A stretch of DNA of 64,000 nt from Geoalkalibacter subterraneus. GTDB taxonomy: Bacteria; Desulfobacterota; Desulfuromonadia; Desulfuromonadales; Geoalkalibacteraceae. This document shows, in pieces, positions 6,110 through 44,539 of the stretch. How positions within the stretch are numbered: the stretch's first letter is position 1; every line of letters starts with the position of its first letter. Where the stretch lies: the NCBI RefSeq assembly GCF_000827125.1, contig NZ_CP010312.1, forward strand, positions 124,001-188,000, in the 5' to 3' direction. The notes under the pieces were generated by a model that saw only the letters and a program-made list of their open reading frames with translations, made no database searches and was not told where the DNA came from. A program made the position numbers and the translations under genes.

Positions 6110-6438
6110 CGCCATAGACAAAAACTTTCAGGAGTCACAGTCAACGACCCGCCACCAAACCTAACGGTTATGGTGGGGGCTTGTGAAAGCAAGTCCGCAA
6201 GTTGACCAGGCACAGCCACTAGCGAGAGACCGCTGATGGGGCTACGTTAGCGGCGAATACATAGGCACCTTGGAATGCCCACCCAGTTCCAAGCTCTGCG
6301 ATCTGCGATTAAACAGGTGTACCGGGTTAAGCCAGTGTCGCAGATATAGAAAACCGCCGATTAACATTGCCGAGGGTAACATGACCGCCGCAAGGCGAGA
6401 ACCACCGGGGTAGCCCGGTAACTTAACAAGGGACAACG
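6110..6438 (+). ncRNA. Omega RNA (HEARO-type) of the IscB element
   Basis: IscB nucleases use a long structured RNA encoded directly upstream of the ORF, described as HEARO or omega RNA. This 300-base non-coding stretch ends at the iscB start and shows several stem-loops: CCACCA (6152-6157) with TGGTGG (6171-6176), CTTGGAA (6269-6275) with TTCCAAG (6287-6293), and ACCGGG (6404-6409) with CCCGGT (6414-6419). No protein frame fits. The family is known to take its guide from the 5' side of the RNA, so the guide would come from bases before about 6110. The exact 5' boundary is inferred. Confidence 0.75.
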
Positions 6439-7719
6439 ATGCAGCGTGTGTTCGTGCTGGACAACAACAAACAACCCCTTTCCCCATGCTCACCGGCACG
6501 GGCCAGAATGCTGTTGCGTGGTGGCAAGGCAGCGGTGATTCGCCGCTACCCGTTCACCATTATTCTCAAAGACCGCACTGGCGGAAGCACGCAGCCAGTG
6601 GAGCTGAAACTCGACCCGGGCAGCAAAACTACCGGCGTTGCCCTGGTTCAGCAGAAGGACAACGGCGCAGCGGTTATCTTCGCAGCTGAGCTGCAACATC
6701 GAGGCGCATCCATCAAGAAAGCACTCAGCACCCGCCGTGCCCTGCGTAGATCCAGAAGAAGCCGCAAGACCCGCTACCGTGCGCCGCGCTTCAACAACCG
6801 CACAAGAAGCAAGGGGTGGCTGCCGCCATCTTTGCAATCCAGAGTGGATAACGTACACAGTTGGGCAAAGCGCCTGCAACGCCTCTGCCCCATTGCCAAC
6901 ATTGCCGTGGAGACTGTGCGCTTCGACACGCAGAAGGTCGACAACCCGGAGATCCGTGGCGTCGAATACCAGCAGGGAACGCTCGCCGGGTACGAACTGC
7001 GGGAATATCTGTTGGAGAAGTGGCAGCGCCGTTGTGCGTACTGTGGAGCCGAAAACGTCCCGCTCGAAGTCGAGCATGTGGTTCCGAGAAGTCGGGGCGG
7101 CTCCGACCGGGCCAGTAACCTGACGCTTTCGTGCCGACCCTGCAACGAGAAGAAAGGCAGCCGCGCGGTGCAGGAGTTTCTGGCGGATCGGCCGGAGGTG
7201 TTGCGAAAGATCCTTGTCGGTTTGAAGCGACCGCTCAAGGATGCGGCGGCGGTCAATGCCACCCGCTACGCCATTGGCAAGGCCCTCAAGACGCTGGAGC
7301 TGCCCATATCCTTCTGGTCGGGCGGGCGCACCAAGTTTAATCGCACCGGTCAGCGCTACCCGAAAGCCCACTGGATTGACGCGGCCTGTGTGGGTGAGTC
7401 TGGTGCGTCGGTACGGCTCCAGCCCGGTCAGGTAGCGCTGTCCATCAAGGCCACCGGGCGGGGCAGTCGCCAGATGTGCCGGATGGACAAGTACGGCTTT
7501 CCCCGAACGGGTGCCAAGAAGGTGTCTTCTGAGAGCGGGTTTTGCACAGGGGATATCGTTGCGGCGCGTGTCCCAAAAGGTAAATTCGCCGGGCGGCACA
7601 CAGGAAGGATTGCTGTCAGAGGCAGACCGTCCTATCGGCTCACGACACAGGATCAGATATTTGATGTCCATCCGAAATATTTAACAGCGATCCATCGAGC
7701 AGACGGCTATGCGTATTAA
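6439..7719 (+). CDS. iscB: IscB RNA-guided HNH/RuvC nuclease
   Basis: The 426-residue protein has the full IscB architecture. A PLMP-type N-terminus (VFVLDNNKQPLSPCSPARAR) leads into RuvC-I (ELKLDPGSKTTGVAL, Asp near 58). Then come an arginine-rich bridge helix (about 95-125) and RuvC-II (IANIAVETVRFD, Glu near 157). The HNH domain spans about 198-235 (CAYCGAENVPLEVEHVVPRS and SCRPCNEKKG). RuvC-III is HWIDAACVG (about 311), followed by the C-terminal target-adjacent-motif interacting region. All catalytic residues I can locate are present, so it should be active. IscB is the ancestor of Cas9 and cuts DNA guided by omega RNA. No transposase is adjacent, as is usual for IscB. A ribosome-binding site AAGGGACAACG precedes the ATG. 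Confidence 0.93.
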   Translation: MQRVFVLDNNKQPLSPCSPARARMLLRGGKAAVIRRYPFTIILKDRTGGSTQPVELKLDPGSKTTGVALVQQKDNGAAVIFAAELQHRGASIKKALSTRRALRRSRRSRKTRYRAPRFNNRTRSKGWLPPSLQSRVDNVHSWAKRLQRLCPIANIAVETVRFDTQKVDNPEIRGVEYQQGTLAGYELREYLLEKWQRRCAYCGAENVPLEVEHVVPRSRGGSDRASNLTLSCRPCNEKKGSRAVQEFLADRPEVLRKILVGLKRPLKDAAAVNATRYAIGKALKTLELPISFWSGGRTKFNRTGQRYPKAHWIDAACVGESGASVRLQPGQVALSIKATGRGSRQMCRMDKYGFPRTGAKKVSSESGFCTGDIVAARVPKGKFAGRHTGRIAVRGRPSYRLTTQDQIFDVHPKYLTAIHRADGYAY

Positions 7720-17413: not shown

Positions 17414-17557
17414 GGATCATGTACGCTGTTTTGGTGCAAACCCTTTAGAATTTGGGTGTCCAAAATCCATGATTGATTCCCTTTATGTGTCCCCGAACTT
17501 AAAAACGGAACAAGTGATTGAAATAGGCTATTCTTCGAGCTAAAACAGGAGCACAAT

Positions 17558-18277
17558 ATGAATATAACCTTCGGTTTGAACACCGCCCCGCCGACCCAAG
17601 CCGCCATTGACCAGGAACGCGAACACCTCACCGATACCACCTCCAAGATGAAGCTGTGGGCGCGGCTGTTCTCCGTGATCGTCATCGTTCTCAGCGCCCT
17701 GATTCTCTTGTGGCTCTACAGCAGCAGCTTGCTGACGGGAGAACAGGTCGCAGTCGCAATCGCAGTCGCAATCGTAGGCGTAGTCGCAATCGCAGTCGCA
17801 ATCGCAGTCGTAGGCGCAGTCACAGGCACAGCCGCAGTCGCAATCGTAGGCGTAGTCGCAGCCGCAGTCGCAGCCGTAGCCGCAGTCGCAGTCGCAGCCG
17901 TAGGCGCAGCCGCAGTCGCAGGCGCAGTCGCAGCCGCAGTCGCAGTCGCAGTCGCAGTCGCAGTTGCCGCCGCCTGGTTTGGTGATCGCCTGACGAAAAT
18001 TCAGAGGGACCTCCGGCAACTCATCCCCCTCGATGCCCCGGAAAACAAGCACCGCTGCGTGGCCGCCTTCGCCGCCTGCGAGCAGGACAGTCTGTGCCGA
18101 GATTACGCTGCGGCCGTTGCGCGGCAAGGCCGGCCCCTGGTCCTGGCCGAAGCTGACCTGATCGAGACCTGGATAGCGAACACTAGCGTTCGGGCCAGCG
18201 AGGAAGAGAAGGCCCGATTGCAGGAGGTCGCCTGCGTCAAGCTTCGGAAAATGCACGAACTGGAGGGCGAAGGGTGA
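17558..18277 (+). CDS. Membrane protein with hexanucleotide-encoded Ala-Val tract
   Basis: This 239-residue protein has an N-terminal soluble stretch (to about 30), a membrane helix (LFSVIVIVLSALILLWLYSS) and then about 75 residues almost wholly of alanine, valine, isoleucine and glycine. Those are encoded by a GCAGTC-like hexamer array (17747-17970). After it comes a charged domain with cysteines (CVAAFAACEQDSLC). The repeat tract could form further membrane spans. Because the unit is six bases, gain or loss of units keeps the frame and would change the hydrophobic length. An ACAGGAGCACAAT site supports the start. Function unknown. Confidence 0.65.
   Translation: MNITFGLNTAPPTQAAIDQEREHLTDTTSKMKLWARLFSVIVIVLSALILLWLYSSSLLTGEQVAVAIAVAIVGVVAIAVAIAVVGAVTGTAAVAIVGVVAAAVAAVAAVAVAAVGAAAVAGAVAAAVAVAVAVAVAAAWFGDRLTKIQRDLRQLIPLDAPENKHRCVAAFAACEQDSLCRDYAAAVARQGRPLVLAEADLIETWIANTSVRASEEEKARLQEVACVKLRKMHELEGEG
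17747..17970. repeat. Degenerate hexanucleotide tandem repeat (GCAGTC/GCAATC)
   Basis: About 37 imperfect copies of GCAGTC, GCAATC, GCCGTA and GTAGGC run without a break. All frames on the plus strand and at least one on the minus strand stay open through it, encoding Ala-Val, Ser-Arg or Cys-Asp alternations. The antisense Cys-Asp frame is an artefact of the repeat. Confidence 0.85.
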
Positions 18278-21732: not shown

Positions 21733-22140
21733 TCAGGCCCGTTGGTTCTCGATGTATTGACGGATAACACCCAGGGGCGCGCCGCCGCAGGACGCCGCGA
21801 AATAGGACGGCGACCAGAGCCCGCCCTTCCAGTAGTGCTGTTCGATCTCCGGGTGCCGCTTCCGCAGCAACCGCGAGGAGACCCCCTTCAGGCTGTTCAC
21901 CAGTTTCGAGACGGGGACCGTGGGCGGATAGTTCACCAGCAGATGAACGTGATCCTTCTCCCCGTCCGTTTCGATCAGCTCCGCGCCGAAGTCGGCGCAG
22001 ACGTTGGAGAAGACCTCCCGCATGGTGTCGTAATGAGACGGCGAGAAGATGCCGCGCCGGTATCTCGTGACAAAGACCAAATGCACATGAAGCTGAAAAA
22101 CACAGCTTCTTCCATGTCGTAACTCGGTTGATGTATTCAT
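21733..22140 (-). CDS. tnpA: IS200/IS605 transposase TnpA (Y1, HUH)
   Basis: This protein of about 135 residues is a Y1 single-strand transposase. It shows the HUH motif HVHLLV and the catalytic tyrosine in VIRQYIENQRA at the C-terminus. I start it at MNTSTELRHG rather than the upstream ATG because the latter overlaps tnpB. It is identical in sequence to the copy at 42448. Confidence 0.9.
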   Translation of the reverse strand: MNTSTELRHGRSCVFQLHVHLVFVTRYRRGIFSPSHYDTMREVFSNVCADFGAELIETDGEKDHVHLLVNYPPTVPVSKLVNSLKGVSSRLLRKRHPEIEQHYWKGGLWSPSYFAASCGGAPLGVIRQYIENQRA

Positions 22141-22154
22141 AGACCAATGATATA

Positions 22155-23318
22155 ATGATGTCCATGGCACGTCAAGCGTTCAAATATAAGCTCTATCACG
22201 CCGACCGGAACCGGCGTCTGGATCGGCAGCGGCGTATCGCCGGGCAGATATGGAACCACTGTATCGCCCTGCACAAACGGTATTACCGCCGCTACCGGAA
22301 GCATTTGAACCAGAAACGGCTCAAGTCCAGGATCGCCTATCTCCGCAATCACCTCCGCCCGGAATGGAAGAATCTGGGTTCCCAGGCGGTTCAGGACGTG
22401 ATCGAACGGATCGAGCGGGGCTACGAACTGTTCTTCAAGGCGTACCGGCTGCGGAAAGAAAAGAAGTCGAAACGGGTGGTGCGGCCGCCGTCTTTCCGCA
22501 AAAGCGTCAAGTACCGCTCCTTCACGTTGAAGCAGGCCGGGTGGAAGCTGATCTCTCCCGGCAAGGTGAAAGTTGGTGGATGCGTCTATCGCTTTCACCA
22601 ATCCCGCGCTATCGAGGGTAAGGTCAAGACCGTGACCATTGGCCGAGACAGCGTGGGTGATTTCTGGATCACCTTTTCCGTCGAGACGGAAGATGCCGCT
22701 CCGATCAAAGCCGCGACAGGTCGAACTGCGGGCTTCGATTTCGGGCTGAAGAGGTTTCTTACCGGCTCCGACGAAACGACGGTCGAGATGCCCGAGCCGC
22801 TGAAATCGGAACTCAAGCGGGTTAAAAAAGCAAACCAGCGGCTATCCCGGAAACTGAAAAAGAGCGGCGGACGCAAAAAAGCCCGACTGTCCCTGGCGCG
22901 ACTGCATCGGCAAATCGCCGACCGGCGGCGGGAATTTCACCATCAAACCGCCCGCGCCCTGTCCCGGAAATACGATGTGATCTGCATCGAGGATCTGAAC
23001 CTGACCGGCATGAAATCCCTTTGGGGCCGGAAGGCCTCAGATCTGGGTTTTGCCCAGTTCGTCGACATTCTCGCCCATCATTGCCGGAAAAACGGCAGTC
23101 GGTTGGTCAAGATCGACCGTTTCTTCCCGAGCAGCAAGACCTGTTCAGTCTGCGGGCATGTCCACCGGGAGCTGTCGCTTCGGGACCGGACCTGGGAATG
23201 CCCGTCGTGCGGATCGCATCACGACCGGGACAAAAACGCTGCTATCAACATCGAGCGGGAAGGCCTGCGCCTGATCGCTCACCAGGCGGGGCATCGCCTG
23301 GAAGGGGAGGCCGCGTAA
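22155..23318 (+). CDS. tnpB: TnpB RNA-guided nuclease, copy 1
   Basis: The 387-residue protein is a full-length TnpB, the ancestor of Cas12. The RuvC residues are visible: Asp in AGFDFGLKRF (about 195), Glu in CIEDLNLTGM (about 279) and Asp in HDRDKNAAINI (about 360). The zinc ribbon is CSVCGHVHREL...CPSCGS. It should be active with an omega RNA from the element right end. A patch of about 150 bases (22555-22706) is strongly diverged from the second copy while the rest is nearly identical. The start may be the ATG at 22164 (MARQAFKYK). Confidence 0.93.
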   Translation: MMSMARQAFKYKLYHADRNRRLDRQRRIAGQIWNHCIALHKRYYRRYRKHLNQKRLKSRIAYLRNHLRPEWKNLGSQAVQDVIERIERGYELFFKAYRLRKEKKSKRVVRPPSFRKSVKYRSFTLKQAGWKLISPGKVKVGGCVYRFHQSRAIEGKVKTVTIGRDSVGDFWITFSVETEDAAPIKAATGRTAGFDFGLKRFLTGSDETTVEMPEPLKSELKRVKKANQRLSRKLKKSGGRKKARLSLARLHRQIADRRREFHHQTARALSRKYDVICIEDLNLTGMKSLWGRKASDLGFAQFVDILAHHCRKNGSRLVKIDRFFPSSKTCSVCGHVHRELSLRDRTWECPSCGSHHDRDKNAAINIEREGLRLIAHQAGHRLEGEAA

Positions 23319-23812: not shown

Positions 23813-24469
23813 TTGGAGACCCCCAAAAAAATCAAAACAAACGATCATGTCCCACTTTCGGTTATCAAGGCGTTCGCCGCGCAAAAAGGACTGACCCTGA
23901 TTGTCTCTCCCGAAGACTCGGGCTTTCCTGACCCTTACGCCTTTCTGACTTCCCGGGACGGCAAAACAGAAATCAAATTGGTCCGAGAAACCGATGACGC
24001 AGATCCTGTGTATCGGCGTTCTCCTTTTTTCCATAAGAATGATAAATACGCTCGGCTTGCCGCAGAATTTAACCGCTGCGGCTGCGAGAATCCACACGCC
24101 AACACGCTCGAGGCTAAAGTCATTGACGTTGATTTTCAAAGGGCTGAGTATGAATGGCACACATCGAGAATGATCTATTACCTCTCGCCCTGCTCGAAGT
24201 GCAATAAAGACGTGCTTCACGCAACCACTTTTTGCGACTATCGCACCAAAGGGGTCACTCTCGCACAAAAAGCCGCCGCCTCGCTTCGAGTGTTCCGAAA
24301 AGATCCTTCGGGCCGTGTTGATGGTTTTGAAAAAATTCTCGATCTCTATTGTCGCTACACTGGAGTCCAACTTGGACTCGATATCTTTGAAAACACCACG
24401 AGTAAGCCAAAACCTTCGACTCCAAGAACCACTTTTACCGTCAACAACCCCTTTGGGGTCTGGTTCTGA
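23813..24469 (+). CDS. VWF-tail zinc protein family, member A
   Basis: The 218-residue protein starts at TTG behind AGGGAGAACC. It belongs to a five-member paralogous set in this window. The shared order is CxC (RCGC, about 85), VDVDF (about 105), a tyrosine/arginine strand, CxxC (SPCSKCNK, about 127), and the C-terminal end VNNPFGVWF. Pairwise identity is low, but the order, spacing and extreme C-terminus agree. It probably binds one zinc ion. I do not recognise the family or know a function. Confidence 0.7.
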   Translation: METPKKIKTNDHVPLSVIKAFAAQKGLTLIVSPEDSGFPDPYAFLTSRDGKTEIKLVRETDDADPVYRRSPFFHKNDKYARLAAEFNRCGCENPHANTLEAKVIDVDFQRAEYEWHTSRMIYYLSPCSKCNKDVLHATTFCDYRTKGVTLAQKAAASLRVFRKDPSGRVDGFEKILDLYCRYTGVQLGLDIFENTTSKPKPSTPRTTFTVNNPFGVWF

Positions 24470-30883: not shown

Positions 30884-31522
30884 ATGTCCGAGCTCAATGC
30901 AAATATCTTCTACACCGATTTTGAAGCTGCTCCAGAAGTGGGGGCACTGGTCAACACAAAGGCGCTTGCCGTCTATGCCCATAAAAACGGTCTGGAGCAA
31001 GTCTGTTTTGAGGCAAATTCAGAACAGATGCAAATGCCCCATATCCTGCTTGAAGCTGCGGGAGTCAAGCAATACTACCGATTTGCCCCCAAAGCTTCGA
31101 CTGAGAAGCAGTCAGTCTATGTTCGGCTCGATGAAATCGAGGGGCTTAAGCTTAAAACAGCTCGCATGATGTGGAAACACAATCAATGCAAGTGCAAGGA
31201 TGCGCCCATAAGCCTTGAGGAAGAAATTCTGCTCGATGCCGATTTTGAACACCCGGAGATAGACACCCATCGCTATCTCTGGCTGGGCTACCCTTGCGAG
31301 GCCTGCGGCAAGAAAAAGGTGCATGCCGCCTTGTTTTGCCCCGCCGGCGCCTGCCTCGGACTCGAAGACCTGATAGAAAGAGCCCTTTTTCATCAAAAGG
31401 CCAGTCGGCAAGAAGTCAAAATGAAGCTTCGTGACCTTTTGGCCTGGCACACCTCCTGGCAGCCTCCGGAGAAGATTTTGTCTTCGATCGTTTTGCCCCA
31501 AAGCCCCTTTGTGTGGTTTTAA
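30884..31522 (+). CDS. VWF-tail zinc protein family, member B (in the CRISPR operon)
   Basis: The 212-residue protein has the family order: CKC near 102, LLDADF near 118, HRYLWLGYPCEACGK near 130-145, and the terminal LPQSPFVWF. It lies 14 bases after the CysH-like gene and 25 bases before the methylase. AAAGGATCGCTTTTT precedes the ATG. Being inside the operon that carries csf5-csf1-csf2-csf3 links the family to the CRISPR system or to the plasmid core. Function unknown. Confidence 0.75.
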   Translation: MSELNANIFYTDFEAAPEVGALVNTKALAVYAHKNGLEQVCFEANSEQMQMPHILLEAAGVKQYYRFAPKASTEKQSVYVRLDEIEGLKLKTARMMWKHNQCKCKDAPISLEEEILLDADFEHPEIDTHRYLWLGYPCEACGKKKVHAALFCPAGACLGLEDLIERALFHQKASRQEVKMKLRDLLAWHTSWQPPEKILSSIVLPQSPFVWF

Positions 31523-39251: not shown

Positions 39252-39866
39252 ATGAACAGGGATGAGAGAATATGTAATAGATATCGTCCGGGTGATATTA
39301 TCTCACCCGACGAATTTGACCGCTTGCTGGAAACAGCTCACTCTTCCTGCAGTGTTGTTCTGGGCGGCACAGAGTTCTGGGCCCTTCGCAATGATCTTGG
39401 CGCTGTTACGCTGGCCGCTACAAAACAGCTAAAGTCTTCCGGTAAAATCAAACTCTGCGCATCGCAGACCACACGTCAGAAGCTGCTGCTTTTTCCTGAA
39501 GACCGCTGTACCTGCTCTGCTCAAAAAGAGTTAGCAAATATCAAGCCTTTCGCCCGGCATATTGCCGACATCGATTTTCAACAACTCCACACCCCTCTGC
39601 CTCGTTATCTCTGGGTCAAAGGCCCCTGTATCCATTGCTCAAAGACAATTGTGACAGGCATTGAAATTACGCGCCGTGCAACCGGCTCCAGCCTGATCGA
39701 CATTGTAAGGCGCAAGTTTTCACAAAAAGACCCCTCACCGCAAGCAGACCCGCAGCGGGTTGAAAGACTTTTTGCCTTCTATCAAAACTCTCTTTTCTGG
39801 CAGTACGGAGACGCACTTGCTTCCGGACATCTGAATGTCGACAATCCTCTCGGAGTCTGGTTCTAA
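39252..39866 (+). CDS. VWF-tail zinc protein family, member C
   Basis: The 204-residue protein shows RCTC (about 86), HIADIDF, PRYLWVKGPCIHCSK (about 118-132) and the terminal VDNPLGVWF. It lies directly downstream of csf4 and has its own promoter. Translation is probably leaderless. Member D follows seven bases later. Confidence 0.72.
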   Translation: MNRDERICNRYRPGDIISPDEFDRLLETAHSSCSVVLGGTEFWALRNDLGAVTLAATKQLKSSGKIKLCASQTTRQKLLLFPEDRCTCSAQKELANIKPFARHIADIDFQQLHTPLPRYLWVKGPCIHCSKTIVTGIEITRRATGSSLIDIVRRKFSQKDPSPQADPQRVERLFAFYQNSLFWQYGDALASGHLNVDNPLGVWF

Positions 39867-39872
39867 GAGAAT

Positions 39873-40532
39873 TTGATGAAAGAACATCCCATCAAACCTG
39901 GTCAACGCTATACCTATCGCGAAATTATCAATTTCGCCGATGAGAATGTCTTGGATACGCACCGCTTCGGAGAAACGCCTGACGCCAAAGAGCGCACCTT
40001 TCTGGCCGTAGTCAACCATGAAGCGCCCGTGGCTTACTACATGCGCATCACTTTCGAGCGCTCGGATCAGGACACCTACCTCTGTCTTGAAAAGCTGCCA
40101 AAGATTCAGGCCATGCTCGCTGCCGCAAGAACCTTCAACCCCAAAGGCTATTGCAGTTGTGGGACGGATTTAAAAGATACAATTTTGCAAAAGCCTATCT
40201 TGGTCGGGGCCGATTTTCACAGTCCCAACCAATCAATGGACCGGCGATGTCTTTATTTCAGCACTTTTTGCCCCAGTTGCGCAAAAGGCCGGATTGAAGC
40301 AGTCGATCTCGATACGCCAGACTTTACGCCAAAGATTTTGGGCAAAGAGATCTTCGCCTGCGCCAAGGTCTGGCTGGGCAATCACTCATGGGCAGACGAC
40401 GAAACTCACCAGAACTCCGGCCTGCTGGAGTTAGCGTGGAAACGGCACCGTGCGGTCGACCACCTGTTTGAGCCAAGTCGTAACCTGCCCATCAGCTTTA
40501 ACCTGCCCAGCGCTCCCTTTGTATGGTTCTAA
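39873..40532 (+). CDS. VWF-tail zinc protein family, member D
   Basis: The 219-residue protein shows YCSCG (about 91), VGADF, CLYFSTFCPSCAKG (about 125-138) and the terminal LPSAPFVWF. It is in tandem with member C and ends 72 bases before the first oriV iteron. Its N-terminal VAYYMRITFERSD resembles the LPAYFFRLEF segment of member E, so an N-terminal beta domain is shared. Confidence 0.72.
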   Translation: MMKEHPIKPGQRYTYREIINFADENVLDTHRFGETPDAKERTFLAVVNHEAPVAYYMRITFERSDQDTYLCLEKLPKIQAMLAAARTFNPKGYCSCGTDLKDTILQKPILVGADFHSPNQSMDRRCLYFSTFCPSCAKGRIEAVDLDTPDFTPKILGKEIFACAKVWLGNHSWADDETHQNSGLLELAWKRHRAVDHLFEPSRNLPISFNLPSAPFVWF

Positions 40533-40603: not shown

Positions 40604-41181
40604 ATAGGGGGATAATACGGACGGGTCTTTCGATATCCCAATGTCACACAGAATTTTATCCCCCACCGTGAATAGGGGGATAACACGGACACTGGAGTTA
40701 AACAACCGCTTGACCTTCCCTGTTTTTAAGAGCCAGGAGGAGGTCAAGCGGACCTTGCAGAGAAATCCAATGGATCTTAGAGGCCCGATTCGAGACTGAT
40801 GAAGACGGATACTGGAACTGCCAGAGCCATAGAAGCTTGCGCTGGTGGGAAGCGGCTGTGCTCATGATTCGAGGTTCAGACCGATCAAAAAGCGCGGCAA
40901 GTCCAGTCACTTCAAACCAAAAAGATTTATAGGGGGATAATACGGACAGGGGAGGGGATAACACGGACACAATAGAGGGATAATACGGACAGGTTCGGGG
41001 GATGAAGCGGACGGGTAGGGGGATAACACGGTCACTCTTAGAGGGATAGCGCGGACCAGGGTAGGGGGATAATACGGACGGAGGTTTTTTGAAAAAGAAT
41101 TTTGTTTCAACTATTTAGACCTTCATAACACTGTCTAAAACCGATCTTAAAACCTTTGTAAAACCTACCTCCTGTGAATAA
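40604..41181. other. Plasmid origin oriV: nine iterons, AT-rich region, DnaA box
   Basis: Nine copies of a 19-base unit (ATAGGGGGATAATACGGAC) start at 40604, 40672, 40929, 40950, 40972, 40994, 41015, 41038 and 41061, all in plus orientation. The last seven are spaced about 21-23 bases, two helical turns. An AT-rich stretch (41085-41160) follows, with a DnaA box TGTGAATAA at 41173-41181. The gene for a TrfA-type initiator is nearby and has one more iteron at its start. This is the layout of an RK2-like iteron origin. Confidence 0.9.
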
Positions 41182-41269: not shown

Positions 41270-42433
41270 TTACGCGGCCTCCCCTTCCAGGCGATGCCCC
41301 GCCTGGTGAGCGATCAGGCGCAGGCCTTCCCGCTCGATGTTGATAGCAGCGTTTTTGTCCCGGTCGTGATGCGATCCGCACGACGGGCATTCCCAGGTCC
41401 GGTCCCGAAGCGACAGCTCCCGGTGGACATGCCCGCAGACTGAACAGGTCTTGCTGCTCGGGAAGAAACGGTCGATCTTGACCAACCGACTGCCGTTTTT
41501 CCGGCAATGATGGGCGAGAATGTCGACGAACTGGGCAAAACCCAGATCTGAGGCCTTCCGGCCCCAAAGGGATTTCATGCCGGTCAGGTTCAGATCCTCG
41601 ATGCAGATCACATCGTATTTCCGGGACAGGGCGCGGGCGGTTTGATGGTGAAATTCCCGCCGCCGGTCGGCGATTTGCCGATGCAGTCGCGCCAGGGACA
41701 GTCGGGCTTTTTTGCGTCCGCCGCTCTTTTTCAGTTTCCGGGATAGCCGCTGGTTTGCTTTTTTAACCCGCTTGAGTTCCGATTTCAGCGGCTCGGGCAT
41801 CTCGACCGTCGTTTCGTCGGAGCCGGTAAGAAACCTCTTCAGCCCGAAATCGAAGCCCGCAGTTCGACCTGTCGCGGCTCGGTTCGGAGAGGGTTCGTCC
41901 GTTTCGACGGAAAAGATGATCCAGAAGTCGCCGACGGCATCGCGAGAGATCGTCACGGTCTTGATCGTCCCGTCGATGTCGCGGCCGGCGTGGTAGCGAT
42001 AGGCCGCCCCGCCGATTCGTACCTTGCCGGGAGAAAGGAGTTTCCACCCGGCCTGCTTCAACGTGAAGGAGCGGTACTTGACGCTTTTGCGGAAAGACGG
42101 CGGCCGCACCACCCGTTTCGACTTCTTTTCTTTCCGCAGCCGGCACGCCTTGAAGAACAGTTCGTAGCCCCGCTCGATCCGTTCGATCACGTCCTGAACC
42201 GCCTGGGAACCCAGATTCTTCCATTCCGGGCGGAGGTGATTGCGGAGATAGGCGATCCTGGACTTGAGCCGTTTCTGGTTCAAATGCTTCCGGTAGCGGC
42301 GGTAATACCGTTTGTGCAGGGCGATACAGTGGTTCCATATCTGCCCGGCGATACGCCGCTGCCGATCCAGACGCCGGTTCCGGTCGGCGTGATAGAGCTT
42401 ATATTTGAACGCTTGACGTGCCATGGACATCAT
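41270..42433 (-). CDS. tnpB: TnpB RNA-guided nuclease, copy 2
   Basis: The 387-residue TnpB is the same as copy 1 except for one Tyr/Cys change near residue 98 and a diverged segment around residues 134-185 (VRIGGAAYRYHAGRDIDG here, VKVGGCVYRFHQSRAIEG in copy 1). Catalytic residues and the zinc ribbon are intact. Confidence 0.93.
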   Translation of the reverse strand: MMSMARQAFKYKLYHADRNRRLDRQRRIAGQIWNHCIALHKRYYRRYRKHLNQKRLKSRIAYLRNHLRPEWKNLGSQAVQDVIERIERGYELFFKACRLRKEKKSKRVVRPPSFRKSVKYRSFTLKQAGWKLLSPGKVRIGGAAYRYHAGRDIDGTIKTVTISRDAVGDFWIIFSVETDEPSPNRAATGRTAGFDFGLKRFLTGSDETTVEMPEPLKSELKRVKKANQRLSRKLKKSGGRKKARLSLARLHRQIADRRREFHHQTARALSRKYDVICIEDLNLTGMKSLWGRKASDLGFAQFVDILAHHCRKNGSRLVKIDRFFPSSKTCSVCGHVHRELSLRDRTWECPSCGSHHDRDKNAAINIEREGLRLIAHQAGHRLEGEAA

Positions 42434-42896: not shown

Positions 42897-43772
42897 TTAC
42901 GGTGCGTCAGATAAATTTGCATAATCTAGTAAGACTGATTTTTTACGGACAAAATACAAAACATTGGACTCAGTGAACCAGTATTCCTCAAGGATGTTCA
43001 TTTTTTTCATTTCTTCCAACGCTTGTTTCAGATCCGCTTTGAATTTTCGTGTCTCTCTCTGTGATCCGCTCAAGTTCTTTAAATTTTCGACTTTTATATA
43101 ATGCGGATGTGAAGCTGTCGCCTTATGACTCAAGATATAGGCATGGAGCCATTTCAAAAAATTGGAACCCAGTTGCTGCCTGACCGCAAGGGGAATCTGC
43201 GTATAATCATCAGTGAAAAGTTTGGCCAAGCGGGGATTGACCGAAAATATAAAACACTCCTGATGCTTGTCGTAGAAAAACTCTCTGATCAAATTTCCTG
43301 AATAAACAGCCCCTTCCGTCTCTATCTCAACAGAGCACGCAACCATTCTATTCACCGAAGACTTCAACCATTCCCGGTCGCTTTTTCCACGGCCTTTGCG
43401 CCCCATATCCCTCAAAAGGCTATAAAGAGAACAGGGCACCTTGTTACCCAGACCGTCCTTTTTGGAACGCTTTATTGCTTGCATCCAGACATCAAGATCT
43501 CCCTGGTCAAGCATCGACCCTGTATACCTGATTGTCACCCCTCCCCAGGACGCAATTTTTTCACGATTAACAAATCTTCTAGCCCCCTTTTTGACCAGGC
43601 CGAAAAGAGCTGATCGCACAACCGTTGACGGAACCCCTATAACCTTGGCCGGCCAGTCAGGCAAGGGAAGAACCATCTGCTCCTCCTCCTTTTGGCGACT
43701 TCGCTGAATTTCCTGAATCCTGCGCGTGGATTGTTCCAAAAAATCATCCAAATCATCGCCTCGTTTTGTCAT
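42897..43772 (-). CDS. trfA: TrfA-type plasmid replication initiator
   Basis: This 291-residue protein matches TrfA of broad-host-range plasmids. Matching blocks include VIGVPSTVVRSALFGLVKKG (about 40-60) and ASWGGVTIRYTGSMLDQGDL (about 75-95), then a winged-helix region and the C-terminal NLKNLSGSQRETRKFKADL. TrfA binds iterons and opens oriV with DnaA. An iteron (43773-43791) directly abuts the ATG and contains the only purine-rich site, so binding could shut off its own translation or transcription. The last three residues are altered by the IS insertion. Confidence 0.92.
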   Translation of the reverse strand: MTKRGDDLDDFLEQSTRRIQEIQRSRQKEEEQMVLPLPDWPAKVIGVPSTVVRSALFGLVKKGARRFVNREKIASWGGVTIRYTGSMLDQGDLDVWMQAIKRSKKDGLGNKVPCSLYSLLRDMGRKGRGKSDREWLKSSVNRMVACSVEIETEGAVYSGNLIREFFYDKHQECFIFSVNPRLAKLFTDDYTQIPLAVRQQLGSNFLKWLHAYILSHKATASHPHYIKVENLKNLSGSQRETRKFKADLKQALEEMKKMNILEEYWFTESNVLYFVRKKSVLLDYANLSDAP

Positions 43773-43888: not shown

Positions 43889-43917
43889 TTGACTTTATAT
43901 TTAAAAATGTTATTATT
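43889..43917 (+). promoter_or_regulatory. AT-rich sigma70 promoter
   Basis: TTGACT at 43889-43894 and TATTAT at 43911-43916 (16-base spacer) or ATTATT at 43912-43917 (17-base). It diverges from trfA. Confidence 0.65.
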
Positions 43918-43939
43918 TATTTGTTTCAAAGGAGACGTT

Positions 43940-44539
43940 ATGCCAAAAAAACCTGAAATTTCCGAAACCATGACTCCCGCCAAATTACGGAATCTGGCAA
44001 ACCGCAAAAAGTGGCGTACTGTGCCAATAAGCGAGCAGGGTGAGCCGTTGGTGGTCGCCATTTTTACGCAAAACGGACTCCCCGCGTACTTCTTTCGGCT
44101 TGAATTCGCTGTTTTTCATCTCCTCCCTCCCGCTTCACGGCTTAAACAAAAGGCTTTGCGAGAGGTCTGGCATCAATGTCGTTGCGCGATATCTTTTGTC
44201 CAAATAAATCAAAAGATTCTTCTTGATGTTGACCTGGAATATCCACGCCAGCGCCGCTCTCGCTACCTCTGGTATCGCTACCAATGTCCTGAATGCGGCA
44301 AAAATGCGCTCACGAAGGCTCTTTTTGACGACAAGATCGCAGTCGGAGAATCCGCGATTTTAAAAAAAGCCGAAAAAGCACTGTCCATTTCCGACCCCCA
44401 GCATAAGCTGGTCGACCTTCAAGACTTTTACAACAAATTCTGGCCGCAGGATCAGGATATGCTCTCTTCCAAATTGGAAAGCGATAATCCGCTTGCGTCA
44501 TTGCGCCTTCCCCCGACTCAGATTGGCGCATGGTTCTAA
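43940..44539 (+). CDS. VWF-tail zinc protein family, member E
   Basis: The 199-residue protein starts at ATG 43940 behind AAAGGAGACGTT. It shows CRC (about 76), LLDVDLEYP, SRYLWYRYQCPECGK (about 107-121) and ends PPTQIGAWF, an Ala variant of the tail. Divergent from trfA and beside oriV, it may belong to the plasmid core. Confidence 0.72.
   Translation: MPKKPEISETMTPAKLRNLANRKKWRTVPISEQGEPLVVAIFTQNGLPAYFFRLEFAVFHLLPPASRLKQKALREVWHQCRCAISFVQINQKILLDVDLEYPRQRRSRYLWYRYQCPECGKNALTKALFDDKIAVGESAILKKAEKALSISDPQHKLVDLQDFYNKFWPQDQDMLSSKLESDNPLASLRLPPTQIGAWF

Follow-up and report, generated by a model that had tools for sequence, protein, structure and literature searches.

An in-frame hexanucleotide coding microsatellite within an orphan ORF for a predicted membrane protein on the megaplasmid of Geoalkalibacter subterraneus Red1

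Locus and open reading frame

The genome of Geoalkalibacter subterraneus Red1 consists of a chromosome of 3,475,523 bp and a megaplasmid of 242,122 bp (PMC4357744), and the 64-kb window (the whole stretch of DNA that was analyzed) belongs to the megaplasmid. An ORF of 239 amino acids at 17558–18277 on the forward strand contains a hexanucleotide array and encodes an orphan predicted membrane protein, as judged from the ORF list, its translation and the coding score of the sequences flanking the array. A Shine-Dalgarno-like AGGAG (17547–17551, forward strand; read from the sequence) lies 6 nt ahead of the ATG, and the codon scores of the ORF frame in the two flanks, 0.38 and 0.41 bits per codon, are above those of every other frame. 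We infer that this ORF is translated as a membrane protein.

Two further ORFs overlap it, both beginning with GTG and without a visible Shine-Dalgarno site, and neither is probably a gene. The first, in a shifted frame of the same strand (17656–17985), reads the array as Arg-Ser/Asn repeats and has a negative coding score; the second, an antisense shadow ORF (17540–18256, reverse strand), reads it as Cys-Asp repeats, and its flanks score below the forward-strand frame.

The hexanucleotide array

Tandem Repeats Finder delimited a period-6 array at 17747–17964 on the forward strand (218 bp, consensus GTCGCA, 36.3 copies, 79% matches, 0% indels), which codes for the Ala/Val-rich residues 64–136. 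A preliminary description, made from the sequence by eye, had placed an array of GCAGTC-like units at 17747–17970; its position was right, and its unit is the GTCGCA consensus shifted in phase. Its further points, that a six-base unit keeps the frame and that a change in copy number would alter the length of the tract, also hold, as the array contains no indels, the ORF stays open and in frame across it, and each unit adds or removes two residues. The array is thus an in-frame hexanucleotide coding microsatellite, 6-bp tandem units within an ORF whose frame is kept.

No other period-6 array was found within the window by Tandem Repeats Finder. Identity at a lag of 6 nt, measured in 90-bp windows, peaked at 0.86 inside the array, compared with a maximum of 0.49 and a mean of 0.26 elsewhere in the window, and when an 18-mer of three units was searched against the whole genome allowing at most one mismatch, all matches fell within the array.

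The assembly was built from PacBio reads (N50 6.6 kb) with 250x polishing to QV 50, and 100-bp Illumina reads were used in polishing (PMC4357744). Since the array is longer than the Illumina reads, its length might be an artefact of assembly or sequencing. At an N50 of 6.6 kb, however, single PacBio reads should span all 218 bp, and the variant units leave the frame open without indels, so that an artefactual length is extremely improbable.

In bacterial in-frame coding microsatellites and variable-number tandem repeats, units in multiples of three change the length of the protein and not its frame, and the unit found here is likewise a multiple of three. The tetranucleotide phase-variation repeats of Haemophilus influenzae are described in PMC2651432 as switching expression, which the hexamer array could not do by shifting the frame. 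A phase-variation (contingency) locus was rejected on the same ground and because the array lies inside the ORF and outside any promoter.

Variation among the units

Both third codon positions are invariant across the units (36/36 each; 0/72 changes), while 27 deviations fall at the first and second positions, so that units vary at 4/6 positions. The deviations comprise five kinds of base change; three replace Val (by Ile, Ala or Gly) and two replace Ala (by Val or Thr). A block of four units, GTCGCA-ATCGTA-GGCGTA-GTCGCA, occurs again at a distance of 72 bp, and toward its 3′ end the array consists of pure GTCGCA units; duplication combined with recent expansion through slippage would be expected to leave both features.

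Had the Val-Ala frame been under selection, the third positions should be the variable ones, the opposite of the pattern observed. The 27 deviations stem from five distinct changes, and with so few independent events the positions of the changes give a weak test ((2/3)^5 = 0.13). The test showed no codon-level constraint or purifying selection within the tract, and with independent events so few, selection in another frame is not claimed. Nor does the hydrophobic composition need selection, because each of the four transitions observed gives a residue that is small or hydrophobic, and GTC GCA is never one substitution away from a stop codon.

The same data bear on whether the functional reading is one of the other two frames, Arg-Ser/Asn or antisense Cys-Asp, with the Val-Ala ORF as its shadow. 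Both of these frames are open. Read as Arg-Ser, roughly half of the deviations leave the amino acid unchanged (CGC/CGT, AGT/AGC), which is not so for the Val-Ala reading. Five distinct base changes lend this little statistical weight, however, and the repeat codons score −0.40 and −0.47 in these frames versus +0.34 in the Val-Ala frame, with lower scores in the flanks as well and no recognizable ribosome-binding site ahead of either start. We regard this reading as very unlikely.

Features of the predicted protein

Hydropathy was calculated on the biological scale, as had been proposed with the preliminary description. A first membrane helix is predicted at about residues 35–55 (17660–17722, forward strand), where the hydropathy sum falls to −2.7 per 19 residues; this segment is also helical in a low-confidence structural model. 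The residues encoded by the array (64–136, ~73 residues) are Ala, Val, Ile, Gly and Thr, with Ala and Val dominant, and lie within a 79-residue uncharged run (64–142). The sum per 19 residues is −2.6 at residues 65–83 and about −0.9 to +1.6 over most of the remainder. Since the sums at the beginning of the tract are plainly below zero, its first part should insert in the membrane, and insertion of the rest would be marginal. An Ala/Val/Ile tract following a membrane helix, as first described, was therefore recovered by both translation and hydropathy, whereas the suggestion that it might form a coiled segment was not borne out: no coiled coil was seen, and the tract is Ala/Val-dominated and of membrane type.

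The C-terminal part (17965–18274, forward strand) is unique, contains charged residues and had no family match in searches of Pfam, NCBIfam, PHROGs and PADLOC. For the ORF product as a whole, no Pfam or NCBIfam family scored above its own cut-off, and PHROGs and PADLOC gave no match for the intact protein. A single-sequence AlphaFold model was all-helical and poor (pLDDT 60.7, pTM 0.35); it yielded no useful PDB match and was given no weight.

The best family match was to the SLATT_1 / SLATT domain (NCBIfam NF033634), at 18.5 bits for the intact protein and 22.8 bits after the tract had been shortened. SLATT is a two-helix membrane effector domain, and the ORF product resembles it in a predicted order of helix, membrane helix, loop and second hydrophobic segment. 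Both scores are far below the curated cut-off of 41 bits, and membership was rejected, the match being kept as a lead only. With respect to a possible association with conflict-system genes, PADLOC matched neither the ORF product nor that of its upstream neighbor, the two proteins scanned.

Searches for relatives

Searches of 136 genomes from the order, 395 from the phylum, the GTDB contigs, IMG/VR, phages and plasmids yielded no relative of the ORF; the genus is represented by one genome in the searched set. Queries consisting of the C-terminal part, the N-terminal part or the repeat-free protein gave only chance-level matches in the 136 order genomes (E about 0.004–0.006), one of them a coiled-coil protein encoded beside a flagellar-type ATPase gene. 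The best N-terminal match (L026, E = 6.6e-4) is a short alignment to a membrane helix of an unrelated protein and was likewise set aside. A search of the literature on hexanucleotide coding repeats and variable membrane tracts found no report of the case presented by this ORF.

Comparison with other hexamer arrays

Array stretches of the same degenerate unit were found in collections of bacterial contigs and of viral contigs, more than 100 in each. Where the frame could be clearly assigned in genomes, all six frames were represented (VA 11, SQ 12, RS 8, C/Y-G/D 10, T-A/P 13, RL 9). That arrays of this class occur in all six frames indicates that the unit expands as DNA regardless of coding and is not chosen for Val-Ala.

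Two of the clear Val-Ala-frame cases from genomes are membrane proteins, one from Bryobacter (L119) and one, with a related tract, from Calothrix (L131). Neither of these types of protein is related to the ORF product described here. The first is a pentapeptide-repeat membrane protein encoded by a Bryobacter metagenome-assembled genome (JALHNI010000016.1). Its unit, TGCGAC, is the reverse complement of GTCGCA and is present in 25.8 copies in the same frame, and it codes for a hydrophobic tract of Ala, Val, Gly and Phe that immediately follows membrane helices. It differs in that pentapeptide repeats flank its membrane region, and no homology to the ORF was detected. Relatives of the Bryobacter protein were sought in 120 genomes, and none was found.

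The second is one of the pentapeptide-repeat membrane proteins (L131, L279–L308) of the cyanobacterial family that includes Calothrix; in these proteins the membrane region consists of hexamer-coded X-Ala dipeptides and differs in length among homologues. Unlike the orphan ORF described here, this group of proteins is widespread, with homologues of L131 in 46 of the 60 genomes of its taxonomic family, and the hexamers are different, GCCGTA-type variants. Several of the homologues have hexamer-coded A/V/G/F/I tracts of differing lengths, and the span between two anchor motifs ranges from 131 to 219 residues in the repeat-bearing members. Pentapeptide repeats were also looked for in the flanks of the ORF, where no A(D/N)LXX match was present, and a pentapeptide-repeat membrane protein was rejected.

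In-frame expansion of hydrophobic hexamers thus recurs in membrane proteins of bacteria. A broader generalization, in which GTCGCA-type slippage would be a recurrent and independently arisen route (in the plasmid ORF, in Bryobacter and in cyanobacteria) by which membrane segments grow and vary, giving heritable differences in length or in the number of passes, is doubtful.

Long (GCCGTA)n arrays were also observed in IMG/VR contigs (L153, L156, L195, L203, L219, L244, L245, L256, L208), with the number of units differing between contigs; these adjoin a conserved flank that reads approximately DVDMPxGAEIFCVP on the reverse strand. In another contig, L183, (GCCGTA)n arrays extend to 107 units.

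Probable origin of the array and possible length variation

The reading we prefer, with a probability of roughly 0.7, is that the array is a coding microsatellite that grew by replication slippage and was tolerated because a 6-bp unit keeps the frame. Its starting point would have been a short run of GTCGCA (Val-Ala) units that adjoined, or lay within, the second hydrophobic segment of an orphan membrane protein encoded on the plasmid. This stretch may have grown to about 36 units through replication slippage, which we infer as the origin of the array, together with larger duplications within it, and single-base variants would have arisen and then spread through those duplications. The ORF would have survived this growth, as a unit of six bases always preserves the frame and GTC GCA has no one-step stop. 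The resulting protein would have a clear N-terminal helix, a 79-residue uncharged tract and a charged C-terminal part, and the tract could supply additional membrane helices, one of them strong and one to three marginal. If tolerated slippage is all that took place, the locus is a tidy case of a microsatellite lengthening a protein with hydrophobic sequence while leaving the gene intact.

Against mere tolerance stand the unrelated Bryobacter protein, in which the same hexamer occurs in the same frame within a membrane segment, and the repeated occurrence of hexamer-coded hydrophobic tracts among the cyanobacterial homologues of L131; together they suggest that such tracts in membrane proteins may be favored beyond being tolerated. 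The array could be a tunable device, in which reversible slippage would alter the number of Val-Ala units and supply a population with variants in hydrophobic length or in the number of membrane passes. An in-frame unit whose hydrophobic product adjoins a membrane helix fits such a device, as do the 25.8 copies of the identical hexamer in the membrane region of the Bryobacter protein and the variable anchor-to-anchor span of the repeat-bearing cyanobacterial homologues. On the other side, the tract shows no codon constraint, no homologue of the ORF was found in a search set with one genome of the genus, and an in-frame unit cannot toggle expression; moreover, one unit amounts to two residues out of ~73, and single steps should matter little. 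Lack of codon constraint, together with similar arrays in all six frames, favors tolerated slippage over a device, which we consider unlikely; by analogy, the cyanobacterial and Bryobacter parallels keep length variation alive as a possible idea. Should the copy number prove variable, the locus would provide a natural set of membrane proteins, graded in steps of two residues and simple to score, and a link to the hexamer-coded membrane tracts of the cyanobacterial pentapeptide-repeat proteins.

Other features of the window

A TrfA-family replication initiator gene (Pfam E = 1.5e-11) is located at 42897–43772, and Tandem Repeats Finder detected about seven 21–22-bp direct repeats, TAGGGGGATAACACGGACAGG-like, at 40930–41079. 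These repeats and the nearby initiator gene likely constitute an iteron-type plasmid origin. They bear on the proposal that the hexamer array is a DNA-level site that lies within the ORF by chance, such as a set of plasmid iterons or some other array bound by protein. A long array on a 242-kb plasmid might be read in that way, but the direct repeats and initiator gene are a better candidate for the origin, and the variation of the hexamer units, at four of their six positions, counts against it. Direct repeats of ~20 bp near a rep gene, the mark of plasmid iterons, are found at 40930–41079 and not in the hexamer array. A DNA-level site is accordingly highly improbable, and tolerated slippage is kept as the preferred reading.

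A TnpB-type insertion-element ORF lies between the direct repeats and the TrfA-family gene. It is one of two near-identical TnpB-type ORFs (387 amino acids, start MMSMARQAFKYKLYHADRN), at 21733–23318 and 41270–42433; the one in the 21733–23318 region adjoins a TnpA-like ORF, and the two represent copies of an IS200/IS605-type element.

The window also encodes five divergent paralogues of ~200–220 amino acids (23813–24469, 30884–31522, 39252–39866, 39873–40532 and 43889–44539). They have 19%–24% identity to the first of them (23813–24469), share paired CxC and CxxC motifs, end in VWF or AWF at the C-terminus, and gave no match in Pfam.

A HEARO RNA (Rfam RF02033, 139.6 bits) is present at 6140–6385, directly upstream of a gene for an RRXRR/HNH protein (6439–7719), and the two probably represent a guide RNA and its IscB-type nuclease.
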